Shown here: positions 4,953 through 14,067 of the stretch, piece by piece | Position numbering within the stretch: the stretch's first letter is position 1 | Layout of the letters: each line of letters begins with the position of its first letter | Origin: Myxococcales bacterium 68-20 | GTDB taxonomy: Bacteria; Myxococcota_A; Polyangia; Polyangiales; Polyangiaceae | Assembly: GCA_001899635.1 (NCBI GenBank) | Contig: MKVQ01000005.1 | Span: 372,001 to 436,000, forward strand | Direction of reading: 5' to 3' | DNA length: 64,000 nt | Made by a program: the position numbers and the translations under genes | The notes under the pieces: model-generated | What the model was told of the DNA's origin: nothing | Database searches by the model: none | The model's input: the letters and a program-made list of their open reading frames with translations, nothing else

Positions 4953-5187
4953 TCCCGAGGCCCCCCGGATCCTTGTCGGTGAAAGGCGACGCAAAACCAA
5001 CGCCAACTCCGAGCAGCGTACCCCAGATCCGCGGCGATGCTGTCCGTGGGGGGAGGTGCGCCGACGATCCATCACGTTGGAGACGAGCCTTGCGCGCGTG
5101 GTGAGGTATGAATGACGTAGGCCCAGCTCACGGTCGTCGATGGAAGCGCCATCACCGAGAGCGACGAGGTCGGGAGTTCTCTCGAGC

Positions 5188-7824
5188 ATGAAGCTTTCGC
5201 GCGCGCTTGCCTCCTTCGCCACGTTCGGGTTCGTGGCGGTACTGATCAACTGCACCGACAACGAGAACGACTCGTTCCCGCGGCTGCCCGATGGCGACGA
5301 GGTGGACGGGGGCGCCGACGGCGCGATCCCCGACCCGCAGGGGCTCCAGCCGCACCCGAACCGGAACGCGCAGCCGAAGATCACGGATTGCGGCGGGTCG
5401 GTCGCGTCCGCGGGCTCGGCAGTCTGCGCGGTGACGAAGACGGGCTCCGACTTGAAGGTGATTCGCGGGACCGTGCTCGCGCCGGAGGAGGTGCTCCGCA
5501 ACGGCGAGATCGTCGTCGACTCACGCGGCTACATCCTCTGCGCCGCGTGCAACTGCAAGGCGATCACGGGCTACGACGCGGCGTCGGTGATCTCGTGCCC
5601 GGACGGCGTCATCTCGCCCGGCCTGATCAACCCCCACGAGCACCTCACCTACCAGAACAACAAGCCGATCGGGCACGGCGAGGAGCGCTACGAGAACCGC
5701 AGCGATTGGCAGGGCGCGCGAGGGCACAAGCGTCTCGAATACAAGAGCGGCGCGAACCAGACCGTCCAAGCCTACGGCGAGCTGCGCTTCCTCATGAGCG
5801 GCACCACGTCGATCGCCGGCGGCGGCGGTGTCCCCGGCCTCATTCGCAACCTCGACACGAGCGCGGACGAGCTCGAAGGGCTGCCGATCCAGATCGCCGA
5901 CACGGACGTCTTCCCCCTCAGCACGCCGGGGAAGAACCTCGCGCGAGGCTGCGAGTACTCGAGCGGACGAACGACGCGAGGCGGGATCTCTCAGCTCGAG
6001 AGCTACCTCCCGCACATCTCCGAGGGCATCGACGACGAGGCGCACAACGAGTTCGTCTGCACGAGCGCCGAGGGCGATCAGTACGACCTGGTCCAGAAGC
6101 AGACCGCCATCATCCACGCCGTTGCGCTGAACCCGGCCGACGCGAAGGCGATCCAGAAGGACCAGGCGAAGATCGTCTGGTCACCGCGATCGAACGTCGA
6201 TCTGTACGGCAACACCGCACAGGCCGTCATGCTCGACCTCGCAGGGGTCGCCATCGCGCTCGGCACGGACTGGGTCCCCTCCGGATCGATGAACATGCTC
6301 CGCGAGCTGAAGTGCGCCGACTCGTGGAACCAGACTTACTTCGACAAACACTTCACCGACGCCGACCTCTGGCGCATGGCGACGATCAACGGTGCGTTCG
6401 CCGTCGGCGCGAGCCACGCGGTCGGCATGCTCAAGCGGGGCTACCTCGCAGACATCGCGGTCTACGACGGCAAGACGAGCAAGGACTTCCGCGCCGTCAT
6501 CGACGCAGGAGTCGAGGACGTCGCGATGGTCCTCCGCGGCGGCCGCATGATGTACGGCGACGACGCGCTCGTGAAGAACGCGATCTGGGGCGACCCCGCC
6601 GCGTGCGAGTCGTTCCCCGCCCCCGTCTGCGGCAAGGCCAAGGCGGTATGCGTCGACGTCCGCACCACCGCCGCGCCGAAGCTCCAGGCGCTCCTCACCG
6701 CCGGCGAGGTCTACTACCCGGCGTACTTCTGCCGCGACAAGACGCCGGACGACGAGCCGTCGTGTGTGCCCTCACGCGCGGAGTCGCAGTCGGTGAGAGG
6801 CTCGAGCTCGTACACCGGCGTTCCGTCGGAGACCGACAAGGACGGCGACGGAATCCCGGACGAGCAGGACAACTGCCCCACGATCTTCAACCCCGTGCGG
6901 CCGATGGATGTGGGCCGCCAGGCCGACGCCGACAACGACGGCATCGGCGACGCGTGCGACGAGTGCCCCGAGGACGCGACCCAGAGCTGCGAGCACGCCG
7001 CCTCGACCGACCTCGACGGTGACGGGATCCCGAACGGCAACGACAACTGTCCCTCGGTCGCGAACCCGGACCAGGCCGACTCGGACAAGGACGGGCACGG
7101 CGACGCGTGCGACCGGTGCGGGACGGCAAATCCCGGCGCCGAGCCGTGCGTGCTGCCGATCTCGACGGTGCGTAACCCCTCGGCGTCCGGTCACCCGAAG
7201 GGACCCACGGTCGTGTCGGTCGAGGGCTTCGTCTCCGCGCGCAAGACGAACGACCTCTTCTACATCCAGGAGGGGACGACCGGCGCTCCGTGGCAAGGCA
7301 TCTTCGTGAAGGCCGGCGCCCTCACCGGCACCACCACGACGGGCCCGAAGATCGGCCAGAAGGTCCAGGTCATGGGCAGGGCTGCGGACATCTTCAGCGT
7401 CAATCAGATCACCGCCGCGCAGGTCAGCGTCACCCAGCCGACGGCGCAGGCGATGACTCCGCTCGCTCTGACCGCCGCCCAGGTGGGCACCTCCAACTCC
7501 GCGTCCGAGCAGTACGAGAGCTTGCTCGTCAAGGTCGACGGTCCGATGGAGATCACGAACGACAACCCTGACAGCGGCCCGTTCTTCGAGTTCGTCGTCA
7601 CGGGCAACCTCCGCGTCGACGACTACGTCTGGACGCGCTTCGGGACGCCGGCGACCTGCACCCCGTCGCCGTGCCCCTATCCACCGGCGGGCTTCACGAA
7701 CGGCACGAAGTTCTCGAGCATCACAGGGGTCATGGGCTTCTCGTTCAGCAACCGGAAGCTCTACCCCCGCGGCTCGTCGGCGAGCGCCACCGGCGGCGGC
7801 ACCGACCTCGTCCTCGCGCCGTGA
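5188..7824 (+). CDS. Amidohydrolase-TSP3-OB-like fusion lipoprotein
   Basis: ATG at 5188 begins [22 protein letters not shown], a lipoprotein signal peptide. Residues about 60-480 are an amidohydrolase-superfamily domain with the metal-binding H-x-H in [13 protein letters not shown], a later His in HAVALNP, the Asp in [13 protein letters not shown], and the usual C-terminal LADIAVYDG strand. Residues about 540-650 carry calcium-binding thrombospondin type-3 repeats ([44 protein letters not shown]). The C-terminal 200 residues contain [19 protein letters not shown], which resembles an OB-fold module found beside extracellular nucleases. Amidohydrolases hydrolyse C-N or C-O bonds with one or two metals; the substrate is unknown. 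The combination of an amidohydrolase with a TSP3 spacer and a binding-type module on a secreted lipoprotein is uncommon. Confidence 0.8.
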
Positions 7825-10061: not shown

Positions 10062-11411
10062 CTACTTGCAGGTCGCGCCGATCGGCGGTCCGGACGCCGG
10101 CGCCGCCCAGCTCCAGATCGAGGACTTGATGCGCGGATAGTACATCGTGAACGAGTAACACATCTCGTCCGCGGTCTTTTCGCCGAAGCGGACCGGCTCG
10201 CCGGTGTTGTTCGTCCAGCTGCACTTGGTGCGGATGACGTCGCCGGACTTCGTCGTCGCGTTGATCGGCAGCCACGCCTGGGCGTCGAAGGAGTACAGGG
10301 GCATCGTCCCGAGATCGACTTCGGGCCCGCCGTCCTTCGGCGTGAGCGTCGTCGACATCGCGACGCCGATCTTGTGCATGTGGGGCATCGCCGCGAACAG
10401 GTGCAGGTTGGCGAAGGCCGACGGCACCGTGAGGGCGCAGTCGATCGAGTACTGGCCGCCCTGCCCGGGCGCCGCGGGGATCGTGAAGTCTTGGGAGCCG
10501 AACGCCATCACATCCGCCTCGTATTGGCGTGGCGCGGACGTGCAGAGGTCGATCCTGCTCTTGTCCTTCTTGCCCTTCAGCTTCTGCGGGTTCGAGTAGT
10601 GCATTTGCGCGACGTAGTGCGTCGGCTTCGCCGGGTCGGTCGAGATCGGGAAGCCGGCCTCCGGCGGCAGCTCGAGGGGCTTCACGCCCGGCGCCCAGCC
10701 GAGGACCATCCGCCACGTCACCGCGCTGCCGGCGCTGCACGGGGTCGGCACGCCCGAGACCTTGCTCGGGGCCTCGTAGAGCACGATGTGATGCGTGATC
10801 TCGGTGTTGTCGATCACCGGCACGAACGCCGTGATGTGCGCCGCCTGCTCCTGCGAGAGATCGACGCCCCAGCAGACGTACTCGTCGCCCGCGTCCTCCG
10901 GCATCTCCCACTCCGACTCGGGCGCGAGCGAGAGGCTCGGCGTGCACGAGACACCGTCTGGCCGCGTCGTCGTCGTGTTCCCGCAGGTCTCCGGACCGCG
11001 AGGCGCTCCGCTGGCCACCCAGTCGGCGATCGCCTGGCGATTGGCCTCGGACAGGCGCGCGTTCGGCACCGGCGGCATCGGCTTGGCTTCGTCGGCGATA
11101 CGCGCAGCAACGAGCTCGTAGACCTTCTTCGAAGGATCGGTCGCCGCCGGCGCCTGGAGCTGATCCCAGGTCAAGAGCGGCATCGGCGAGCCGAACTGCG
11201 GAGGCGCCGCATGGCACGAGCGGCAGTTGTCCGCGAGGATCTTGTCGACGTCGCACGGCAGCCCCGACGACAAGCCGGACTGTGTTCCCCCCGCGTCGCC
11301 ATCGCGCGGGCCGCTCTTCGACGGCCCCGCGGACGAAGATCCGCCACAAGCGCCCGCAAGGAGGAGCACGCACGGGATCGCGAGGCCGAGAGCGATGGAC
11401 GGGCGGAGCAT
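10062..11411 (-). CDS. Lipoprotein with cytochrome c motif and PHM-like copper monooxygenase fold
   Basis: A signal peptide ends in LLLAGAC (lipobox). Residues 50-145 form a small cytochrome c-like domain with one heme motif, CRSCH (63-67), and a downstream Met in PMPPVP. The rest resembles copper type II ascorbate-dependent monooxygenases (peptidylglycine hydroxylase/dopamine hydroxylase). All expected copper ligands can be picked out: His-His 207-208 (ITHHIVLY), His 271 (VAQMHYSNP), His 344 and 346 (AMPHMHKIG) and Met 417 (ADEMCYSF). Several Cys pairs suggest disulfides. It would act in the periplasm or at the outer surface, possibly hydroxylating a small molecule with electrons delivered through heme instead of ascorbate; that coupling is inference. 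It stands alone, downstream of efp on the same strand with a terminator between. Confidence 0.82.
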   Translation of the reverse strand: MLRPSIALGLAIPCVLLLAGACGGSSSAGPSKSGPRDGDAGGTQSGLSSGLPCDVDKILADNCRSCHAAPPQFGSPMPLLTWDQLQAPAATDPSKKVYELVAARIADEAKPMPPVPNARLSEANRQAIADWVASGAPRGPETCGNTTTTRPDGVSCTPSLSLAPESEWEMPEDAGDEYVCWGVDLSQEQAAHITAFVPVIDNTEITHHIVLYEAPSKVSGVPTPCSAGSAVTWRMVLGWAPGVKPLELPPEAGFPISTDPAKPTHYVAQMHYSNPQKLKGKKDKSRIDLCTSAPRQYEADVMAFGSQDFTIPAAPGQGGQYSIDCALTVPSAFANLHLFAAMPHMHKIGVAMSTTLTPKDGGPEVDLGTMPLYSFDAQAWLPINATTKSGDVIRTKCSWTNNTGEPVRFGEKTADEMCYSFTMYYPRIKSSIWSWAAPASGPPIGATCK

Positions 11412-13326: not shown

Positions 13327-14067
13327 TCAGGCGACGAGCGATCGATACGCGGCCGTGACCTCGGAGAAGCGGACGGACAGCGCGCGCCGCTCCTCGTGGG
13401 TGGCCTCGGGATGCAGATCGGGGTGGTACTCGCGGACGAGGCGACGGTAGGCCCGCTTGATGTCGTCGGCGGGAGCGCCGGCGGACAGGCCGAGCGCCCG
13501 ATAGGCGACGAGCCGGGTGGTGTCGAAGCTCCCGGGGAGACCGCTCGACGGGCGCGCAGAGCGGGAGCTCGCGCTCGAAGACGAAGGCGCGCGATCGCGC
13601 GCGCGCTTCTTGCCCGTGAGGAACTCCGGAGCGTCGAGCGGCTCGTCGACGAGCGCGCCGCGCGGCGGACGCACGGTGACCCGATAGTGGACCTGCGCGT
13701 CGACGAGATCCTCGAGCATCTGGAGACGGAGCATCAACTGCCGGCGAAGGGCCCGGCCGACGATCTCGGGCGAGAGATGGAAATCGCGGACGAGGACCTC
13801 GCCGTGCAGGCGGCGCGACGCCATCGCGCGGAGGAGCGAGCGACGGAGCGTGTCGTCGTCGACATGCTCGTCCCGACGCAGGATCTCGCCGAGCGACGCA
13901 GCGGCGCGGTCGACCTCGACCGCGGTGACGAGACCGCTTGCAAGATGCACGCGATGAACGCGTCCACCCGCCTCGACGAGCTCGAGCGTCCCACTCACGC
14001 GCCCGCGATGGAGCGAGCCGAGAAGGTCGCCGAGGGTCGTCGCCTTGAGGCGCCCCGGGAGCTGCAT
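13327..14067 (-). CDS. DUF4388 protein with C-terminal J domain
   Basis: The 246 residues split into an N-terminal PatA-like/DUF4388 region (residues 1-130, MQLPGRLKATTLGDLLGSLH and GRVSGTLELVEAGGRVHRV), a Ser/Arg-rich linker (about 150-185), and a DnaJ-type J domain (about 186-246) whose loop has the essential His-Pro-Asp (EYHPDLHP, 215-217). The J domain stimulates Hsp70 ATPase, while DUF4388 occurs in gliding and signalling proteins of Myxococcota. The protein therefore looks like a specialised Hsp70 recruiter. No dnaK is present nearby. It lies on the same strand as, and 66 bp downstream of, the small secreted protein. Confidence 0.85.
   Translation of the reverse strand: MQLPGRLKATTLGDLLGSLHRGRVSGTLELVEAGGRVHRVHLASGLVTAVEVDRAAASLGEILRRDEHVDDDTLRRSLLRAMASRRLHGEVLVRDFHLSPEIVGRALRRQLMLRLQMLEDLVDAQVHYRVTVRPPRGALVDEPLDAPEFLTGKKRARDRAPSSSSASSRSARPSSGLPGSFDTTRLVAYRALGLSAGAPADDIKRAYRRLVREYHPDLHPEATHEERRALSVRFSEVTAAYRSLVA

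Follow-up and report, generated by a model that had tools for sequence, protein, structure and literature searches.

A gene on the minus strand of the window, by which we mean the whole 64,000-nucleotide stretch of Myxococcales bacterium 68-20 DNA that was analyzed, appears to encode a bacterial cousin of the PHM/DBH-type dicopper enzymes that carries a tethered class I cytochrome c. The explanation that we favor, to which we assign a probability of about 0.6 as a whole, is that the product is an exported and probably lipid-anchored PHM/DBH-type monooxygenase, with the tethered heme feeding electrons to CuH in ascorbate's stead. The animal relatives make noradrenaline (DBH) and amidated peptides (PHM), using vitamin C. 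The gene (10062..11411, minus strand) encodes 449 amino acids plus a stop codon and is read from 11411 to 10062; a plus-strand reading of the same interval was rejected. An earlier note on this DNA had placed the interval correctly and left the strand unstated. The GC3 of the gene was 0.92, and comparison with its counterpart in L066, one of the closest relatives, gave a dN of 0.18 versus a dS of 0.46.

The product starts with a signal peptide followed by a lipobox-like LAGAC with Cys22 (residues 1 to 22; 11346..11411, minus strand), recognized by eye and by pattern. The closest relatives, encoded in two Labilithrix MAGs (L066 and L067) and 76% identical to the window protein, have LAGAC (L066) and LTGAC (L067). 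Export of the window protein is supported by these sequence features, and lipid anchoring is probable, in line with the earlier description of the protein as a lipoprotein. Of the 134 family members found in the phylum (see below), 95 fit a crude lipobox pattern, so that among them only the window protein is called lipoprotein-like here. Cys22 is followed by a low-complexity spacer, the heme domain, a linker, and the two copper halves. The linker between the heme domain and the copper core (residues 137 to 169; 10905..11003, minus strand) had, in an AlphaFold model, a mean pLDDT of 64 at residues 141 to 150 and of 89 at residues 151 to 160.

Both halves of a dicopper monooxygenase core were detected with Pfam. 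The CuH half (Cu2_monooxygen; residues 170 to 278; 10578..10904, minus strand) scored 61.4 bits against a cutoff of 30 (E = 1e-16), and the CuM half (Cu2_monoox_C; residues 298 to 430; 10122..10520, minus strand) scored 51.3 bits against a cutoff of 23 (E = 1e-13). The same scan of the window protein detected no further domain C-terminal of the copper core and no dimerization domain. When solved structures were searched with phmmer, residues 177 to 433 matched DBH (E = 2.6e-15) and residues 174 to 431 matched PHM (best E = 5.6e-14, for 1yjk). All six copper ligands aligned with those of DBH and PHM, as had been proposed from the letters alone, and the residue numbers given at that time, including those of the heme motif CRSCH at 63 to 67, were exact. 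The CuH ligands are His207 and His208 (10788..10793) and His271 (10599..10601). The CuM ligands are His344 and His346, within His344-Met345-His346 (10374..10382), and the thioether of Met417 in a DEMC motif (10161..10163); all of these codons are on the minus strand. The copper ligands reported for DBH are His262, His263, His333, His412, His414, and Met487, and the disulfides C232-C283 and C466-C488 are described as belonging to the DBH core (PMC4846438). In the phmmer alignment, these disulfides correspond to C180-C225 and C397-C418 of the window protein. Between His344 and His346, where PHM and DBH have Thr, 121 of the 134 family members have Met, 8 have Leu, 4 have Ala, and 1 has a gap.

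The AlphaFold model, which was built with 79 sequences, had a mean pLDDT of 88.2 and a pTM of 0.83. Comparison of the model with solved structures by VIA-align gave a Z of 27.6 for DBH (4zel_A; rmsd of 3.9 over 323 residues), 26.7 for the H108A variant of PHM with citrate (6ala_A; rmsd of 3.0 over 270 residues), 25.0 for the H107A variant of PHM with citrate (5wja_D), and 23.2 for open PHM (1phm). The best entry other than PHM or DBH was a PNGase, with a Z of 7.7. Domains, ligands, and predicted fold together place the window protein in the copper type II monooxygenase (PHM/DBH) family, and the PHM-like fold that the earlier note had anticipated is borne out at the level of Pfam scores and of a predicted structure compared with PHM. 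Chain A of 4zel and 6ala are described as closed conformations, and molecule D of 5wja as citrate bound, with a conformation different from that of molecule A; the role of the open and closed states of PHM and DBH is disputed (PMC4846438, PMC6123673). The closed state of the AlphaFold model is weak evidence because the model holds no metal. A mutual-information coevolution analysis (237 sequences; Neff, 183) gave no usable contact signal and looked dominated by subfamily differences. Inter-domain pairs accounted for 24% of the 331 top pairs versus 35% of all pairs, so that this analysis is silent on domain docking.

Ahead of the copper core, a c-type cytochrome domain was delimited at about residues 51 to 136 (11004..11261, minus strand) from Pfam, phmmer, and the predicted fold. 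It contains the CxxCH heme motif CRSCH (C63, C66, and H67; residues 63 to 67; 11211..11225, minus strand). Met112, in the sequence KPMPP (11076..11078, minus strand), stands 45 residues past this motif and is, judging from its conservation, the likely distal heme ligand. In an alignment of relatives (A2; 79 rows from 78 of 80 loci, with L090 and L092 omitted as near-copies), the CxxCH and Met112 were each kept in 78 rows, and the remaining row, L129, which in this alignment is without the cytochrome part, has a gap at both places. The Cytochrome_CBB3 profile scored 26.2 bits in one run, just below the cutoff of 27, and 28.1 bits, above the cutoff, in another; it matched 34 of the 79 A2 members at an E value of 0.01. 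With phmmer, residues 57 to 136 matched cytochrome c6 (E = 0.0047). Folded by itself, the heme domain had a pLDDT of 88.4. Structural matches to this isolated domain were weak, both with Foldseek (best match, cytochrome c6, at an E value of 0.067; none under 0.001) and with VIA (best Z, 3.0), and 29 of the 35 entries listed by VIA are titled cytochromes. The other six (three TsdA chains, SoxCD, photosystem II, and a respiratory supercomplex) are presumably c-type cytochromes as well. The structural Z alone leaves the cytochrome fold unproven because a best value of 3.0 is too low. The CxxCH near the N terminus of the domain and the distal Met are the sequence features that point to a class I c-type cytochrome. 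The genome of the organism has three matches to PF01578 (cytochrome c assembly proteins).

The fusion of heme and copper domains is the usual architecture of this family in the phylum sample and no local oddity. The sample consisted of 143 genomes, chosen by even sampling of a larger group and each with a completeness of at least 90; judging from the titles of the relatives, the phylum is that of the myxobacteria. The Pfam profile Cu2_monooxygen, which is blind to heme, had 134 matches in 65 of these genomes. At least two members were present in 39 of these 65 genomes, and ten were present in one (G145); because the proteins are related and several occur per genome, counts over the 134 are not independent events. 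Open frames were recovered for all 134 matches (29 from search loci, 3 from own loci, and 102 from fetched stretches). When the 160 residues before the copper profile were inspected, one in-frame CxxCH was found in 129 of the 134 proteins, 94 to 159 residues before the profile, so that the arrangement first noticed in the window protein, CxxCH ahead of the copper core on one chain, recurs throughout most of the family. MP or MPP followed within 70 residues of the CxxCH in all 129. In a control in which the same upstream stretches were shuffled 200 times, on average 0.27 and never more than 3 of the 134 contained a CxxCH.

The copper ligands are conserved wherever sequence exists. The positions of His207, His208, and His271 are His in all 134 proteins, and those of His344 and His346 are His in 133; the exception, L199, runs off its contig, and only its CuH ligands are visible. 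Met417 was aligned in 123 proteins and found as DEMC by pattern in 10 more, in which the gap is a cut of the alignment window; L199 ends before that position. This statement on conservation rests on the 134 profile matches because A2 is partly biased, its loci having been fetched with patterns containing EMC and AFG and with a query built from fused proteins. Both copper domains were matched by all 79 A2 members at an E value of 0.01. The genome of the organism itself encodes three copper type II monooxygenases, each with an N-terminal CxxCH. A search of species genomes returned 235 relatives, and the titles of the 80 that were kept include Labilithrix, Sorangium cellulosum, Polyangium, and Minicystis rosea, as well as Nannocystaceae and uncultured Myxococcales or Deltaproteobacteria. 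The homologs from Sorangium cellulosum are those of L088, L092, and L093. The window protein had no match in the plasmid and phage collections searched.

The five proteins that lack the upstream CxxCH come from three genomes (L147, L149, L038, L039, and L041). Each has a signal with a Cys, followed by a Ser/Thr/Gly-rich spacer where the cytochrome would be. In a quick FastTree phylogeny, from which L199 was excluded and which was rooted on a single outgroup row, a heme-less Nonomuraea protein (L252), the five formed one clade (support, 99) nested within an 11-row set that includes the window protein (support, 95). Because they form one clade, the cytochrome domain was probably lost once inside the fused family. 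With the paralog L003 as the query, the plasmid and phage collections gave one match, from Actinomycetota and without the cytochrome part. Outside the phylum, the Nonomuraea protein was the sole relative encountered, and its copper core is not preceded by a CxxCH. Since these five proteins and the Nonomuraea relative do without it, the cytochrome domain is not essential to the fold.

In the mechanism that we propose, the cytochrome c assembly system would attach heme c, a periplasmic donor would reduce the heme, and the heme would pass single electrons to CuH. CuH and CuM would then cooperate, and O2 bound at CuM would hydroxylate a small molecule or an exposed polymer at a C-H bond. The chain would thus run from the donor to the heme, to CuH, to CuM, and finally to O2 and the substrate. 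Of the two halves of the copper core, it is CuH that is connected to the cytochrome domain. In DBH and PHM, electrons are reported to come from ascorbate and to pass through CuH, whereas O2 binds at CuM (PMC4846438), and the tethered heme probably plays the part that ascorbate has in animals. The earlier note had spoken of a self-contained electron route. That wording is too strong because the heme would be an entry port, which still needs a reductant from outside.

A heme-to-CuH route is plausible by analogy, as it fits two experimental precedents. RpNiR is a cytochrome c-tethered copper nitrite reductase whose heme domain is described as its redox partner and as having complex roles besides electron donation (PMC13324648). 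It is like the window protein, on the reading favored here, in that a heme c domain is fused to a copper enzyme and serves it as redox partner, but its heme domain is C-terminal, and it reduces nitrite, with no hydroxylation of a substrate. Copper nitrite reductase has a copper fold other than that of PHM and DBH. The second precedent is CjX183, a c-type cytochrome domain that reduces bacterial LPMOs, with rather slow electron transfer (PMC8981238). As proposed for the window protein, a c-type cytochrome is there a one-electron donor to a copper monooxygenase and replaces ascorbate, but X183 was assayed as an isolated domain excised from Cbp2D and unfused to the LPMO (PMC8981238), and LPMO has another copper fold.

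A protein that is a candidate redox partner is encoded elsewhere in the genome, on contig C9 (L248:1593-2558, minus strand). This lipoprotein-like protein of 321 residues has a cytochrome domain related to that of the window protein, with 43% identity where the two match, and a module with two further CxxCH motifs, and it has no copper core. Of 58 related genomes, 25 had both the two-heme module and Cu2_monooxygen, 8 had the one alone, 8 had the other alone, and 17 had neither (Fisher P = 0.0013, with kinship and genome size uncontrolled and with weak hits that may be other families).

A different part for the heme domain, as a redox gate or sensor (of O2, NO, peroxide, or domain closure) and not as the main donor to a copper core that is still a monooxygenase, seems unlikely. 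Such a role would have parallels in RpNiR, in which the cytochrome domain alters the Km for nitrite and controls substrate access (PMC13324648), and in DBH, where allosteric regulation has been suggested as a possible function of the DOMON domain found at that end (PMC4846438). It would also agree with the ranking of 4zel_A, 6ala_A, and 5wja_D (Z of 27.6, 26.7, and 25.0) above open 1phm (23.2) among matches to our model. However, the closed state of a metal-free model is weak evidence, as noted above, and Met112, conserved in all A2 rows with sequence at that position, suits a six-coordinate electron transfer heme and not the open site of a gas sensor.

Position 342 bears on the substrate. It aligns with the Arg of PHM that we take to be the binder of the peptide carboxylate; the window protein has Met342 there, and the Arg of peptidylglycine hydroxylase proper is absent. 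Among the 134 family members, this position was F in 28, A in 23, G in 23, M in 14, L in 14, W in 10, and S in 9, and it was another letter in the rest. This variability argues for varied substrates, and substrates probably differ between paralogs. The variable position could also be taken to mean that the PHM fold carries some other redox enzyme, such as a copper oxidase, a peroxygenase, or an oxidase that exports substrate electrons via the heme, and H2O2 is reported to be able to bypass a PHM requirement (PMC6123673). This seems quite unlikely, however, as all six ligands, with the CuM methionine among them, are retained wherever there is sequence. A strict peptide-amidating PHM, which the sequence match to 1yjk might suggest, is very improbable because the substrate-arginine position of PHM is variable in this family; in addition, Pfam finds no domain beyond the copper core. 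A PHM-type domain of the myxothiazol assembly line (PMC9396620) was considered and has no bearing on the window protein.

Gene neighborhoods were compared for 78 of the 80 loci (the target gene was uncalled in L130 and L133), with genes clustered by blastp and a Pfam scan of the neighbors in the window. Among called genes, the nearest one upstream on the same strand encoded EF-P at 13 of the 78 loci, and the nearest one downstream encoded an HflX-like GTPase at 12; in the window, both were confirmed by Pfam. This pattern fits ortholog synteny because other loci have different neighbors. EF-P and HflX are cytoplasmic. Despite the recurrence of these neighbors, it is hardly credible that the product, which has an export signal, acts on EF-P or with HflX, and ortholog synteny accounts for the pattern. 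Those recurrent neighbors at the 78 loci that could be named, the neighbors of the relatives having been compared by clustering, gave no hint of the substrate. Two other genes in the window were noted. One, near the fusion gene and on the opposite strand (5140-7824, plus strand), encodes an amidohydrolase domain with thrombospondin type 3 repeats, and the other (13330-14067, minus strand) combines a DUF4388 domain and a DnaJ domain in one protein.

DBH (4zel) shares with the window protein both copper half-domains, the six ligands, the two core disulfides, and the presence of an extra N-terminal domain. That domain is a DOMON in DBH, whereas a c-type cytochrome domain is found at that end here, and the window protein has no dimerization domain among its Pfam matches. 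PHM (1phm and 6ala) has the same copper core and ligands but has Arg where the window protein has Met and HTH where the window protein has HMH. To our knowledge, the PHM core has no cytochrome. The DOMON of DBH is described as resembling the cytochrome domain of cellobiose dehydrogenase, without the heme ligands (PMC4846438). PHM/DBH-type enzymes and copper enzymes served by cytochromes are both known, and what appears to be new is a PHM/DBH core with a tethered cytochrome c. The fusion was not described in the titles and abstract openings listed by our literature search, the scope of which excluded most subscription journals and all preprints, so it may have been published.

How two coppers far apart share electrons is modeled by PHM and DBH (PMC4846438, PMC6123673). 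A version with a tethered heme would offer a built-in optical electron donor, so that the passage of electrons to CuH could be clocked directly. The fusion also points to a large set of uncharacterized bacterial copper oxygenases. More tentatively, and at somewhat less than even odds, these proteins may form a bacterial branch of the PHM/DBH family that is both large and old and that works free of ascorbate, with an integral cytochrome c in its place. The DOMON of animal DBH, which is without heme, would then stand where these bacteria keep a working electron transfer domain, and the pockets of the paralogs would have diversified for many exported or prey-derived compounds.
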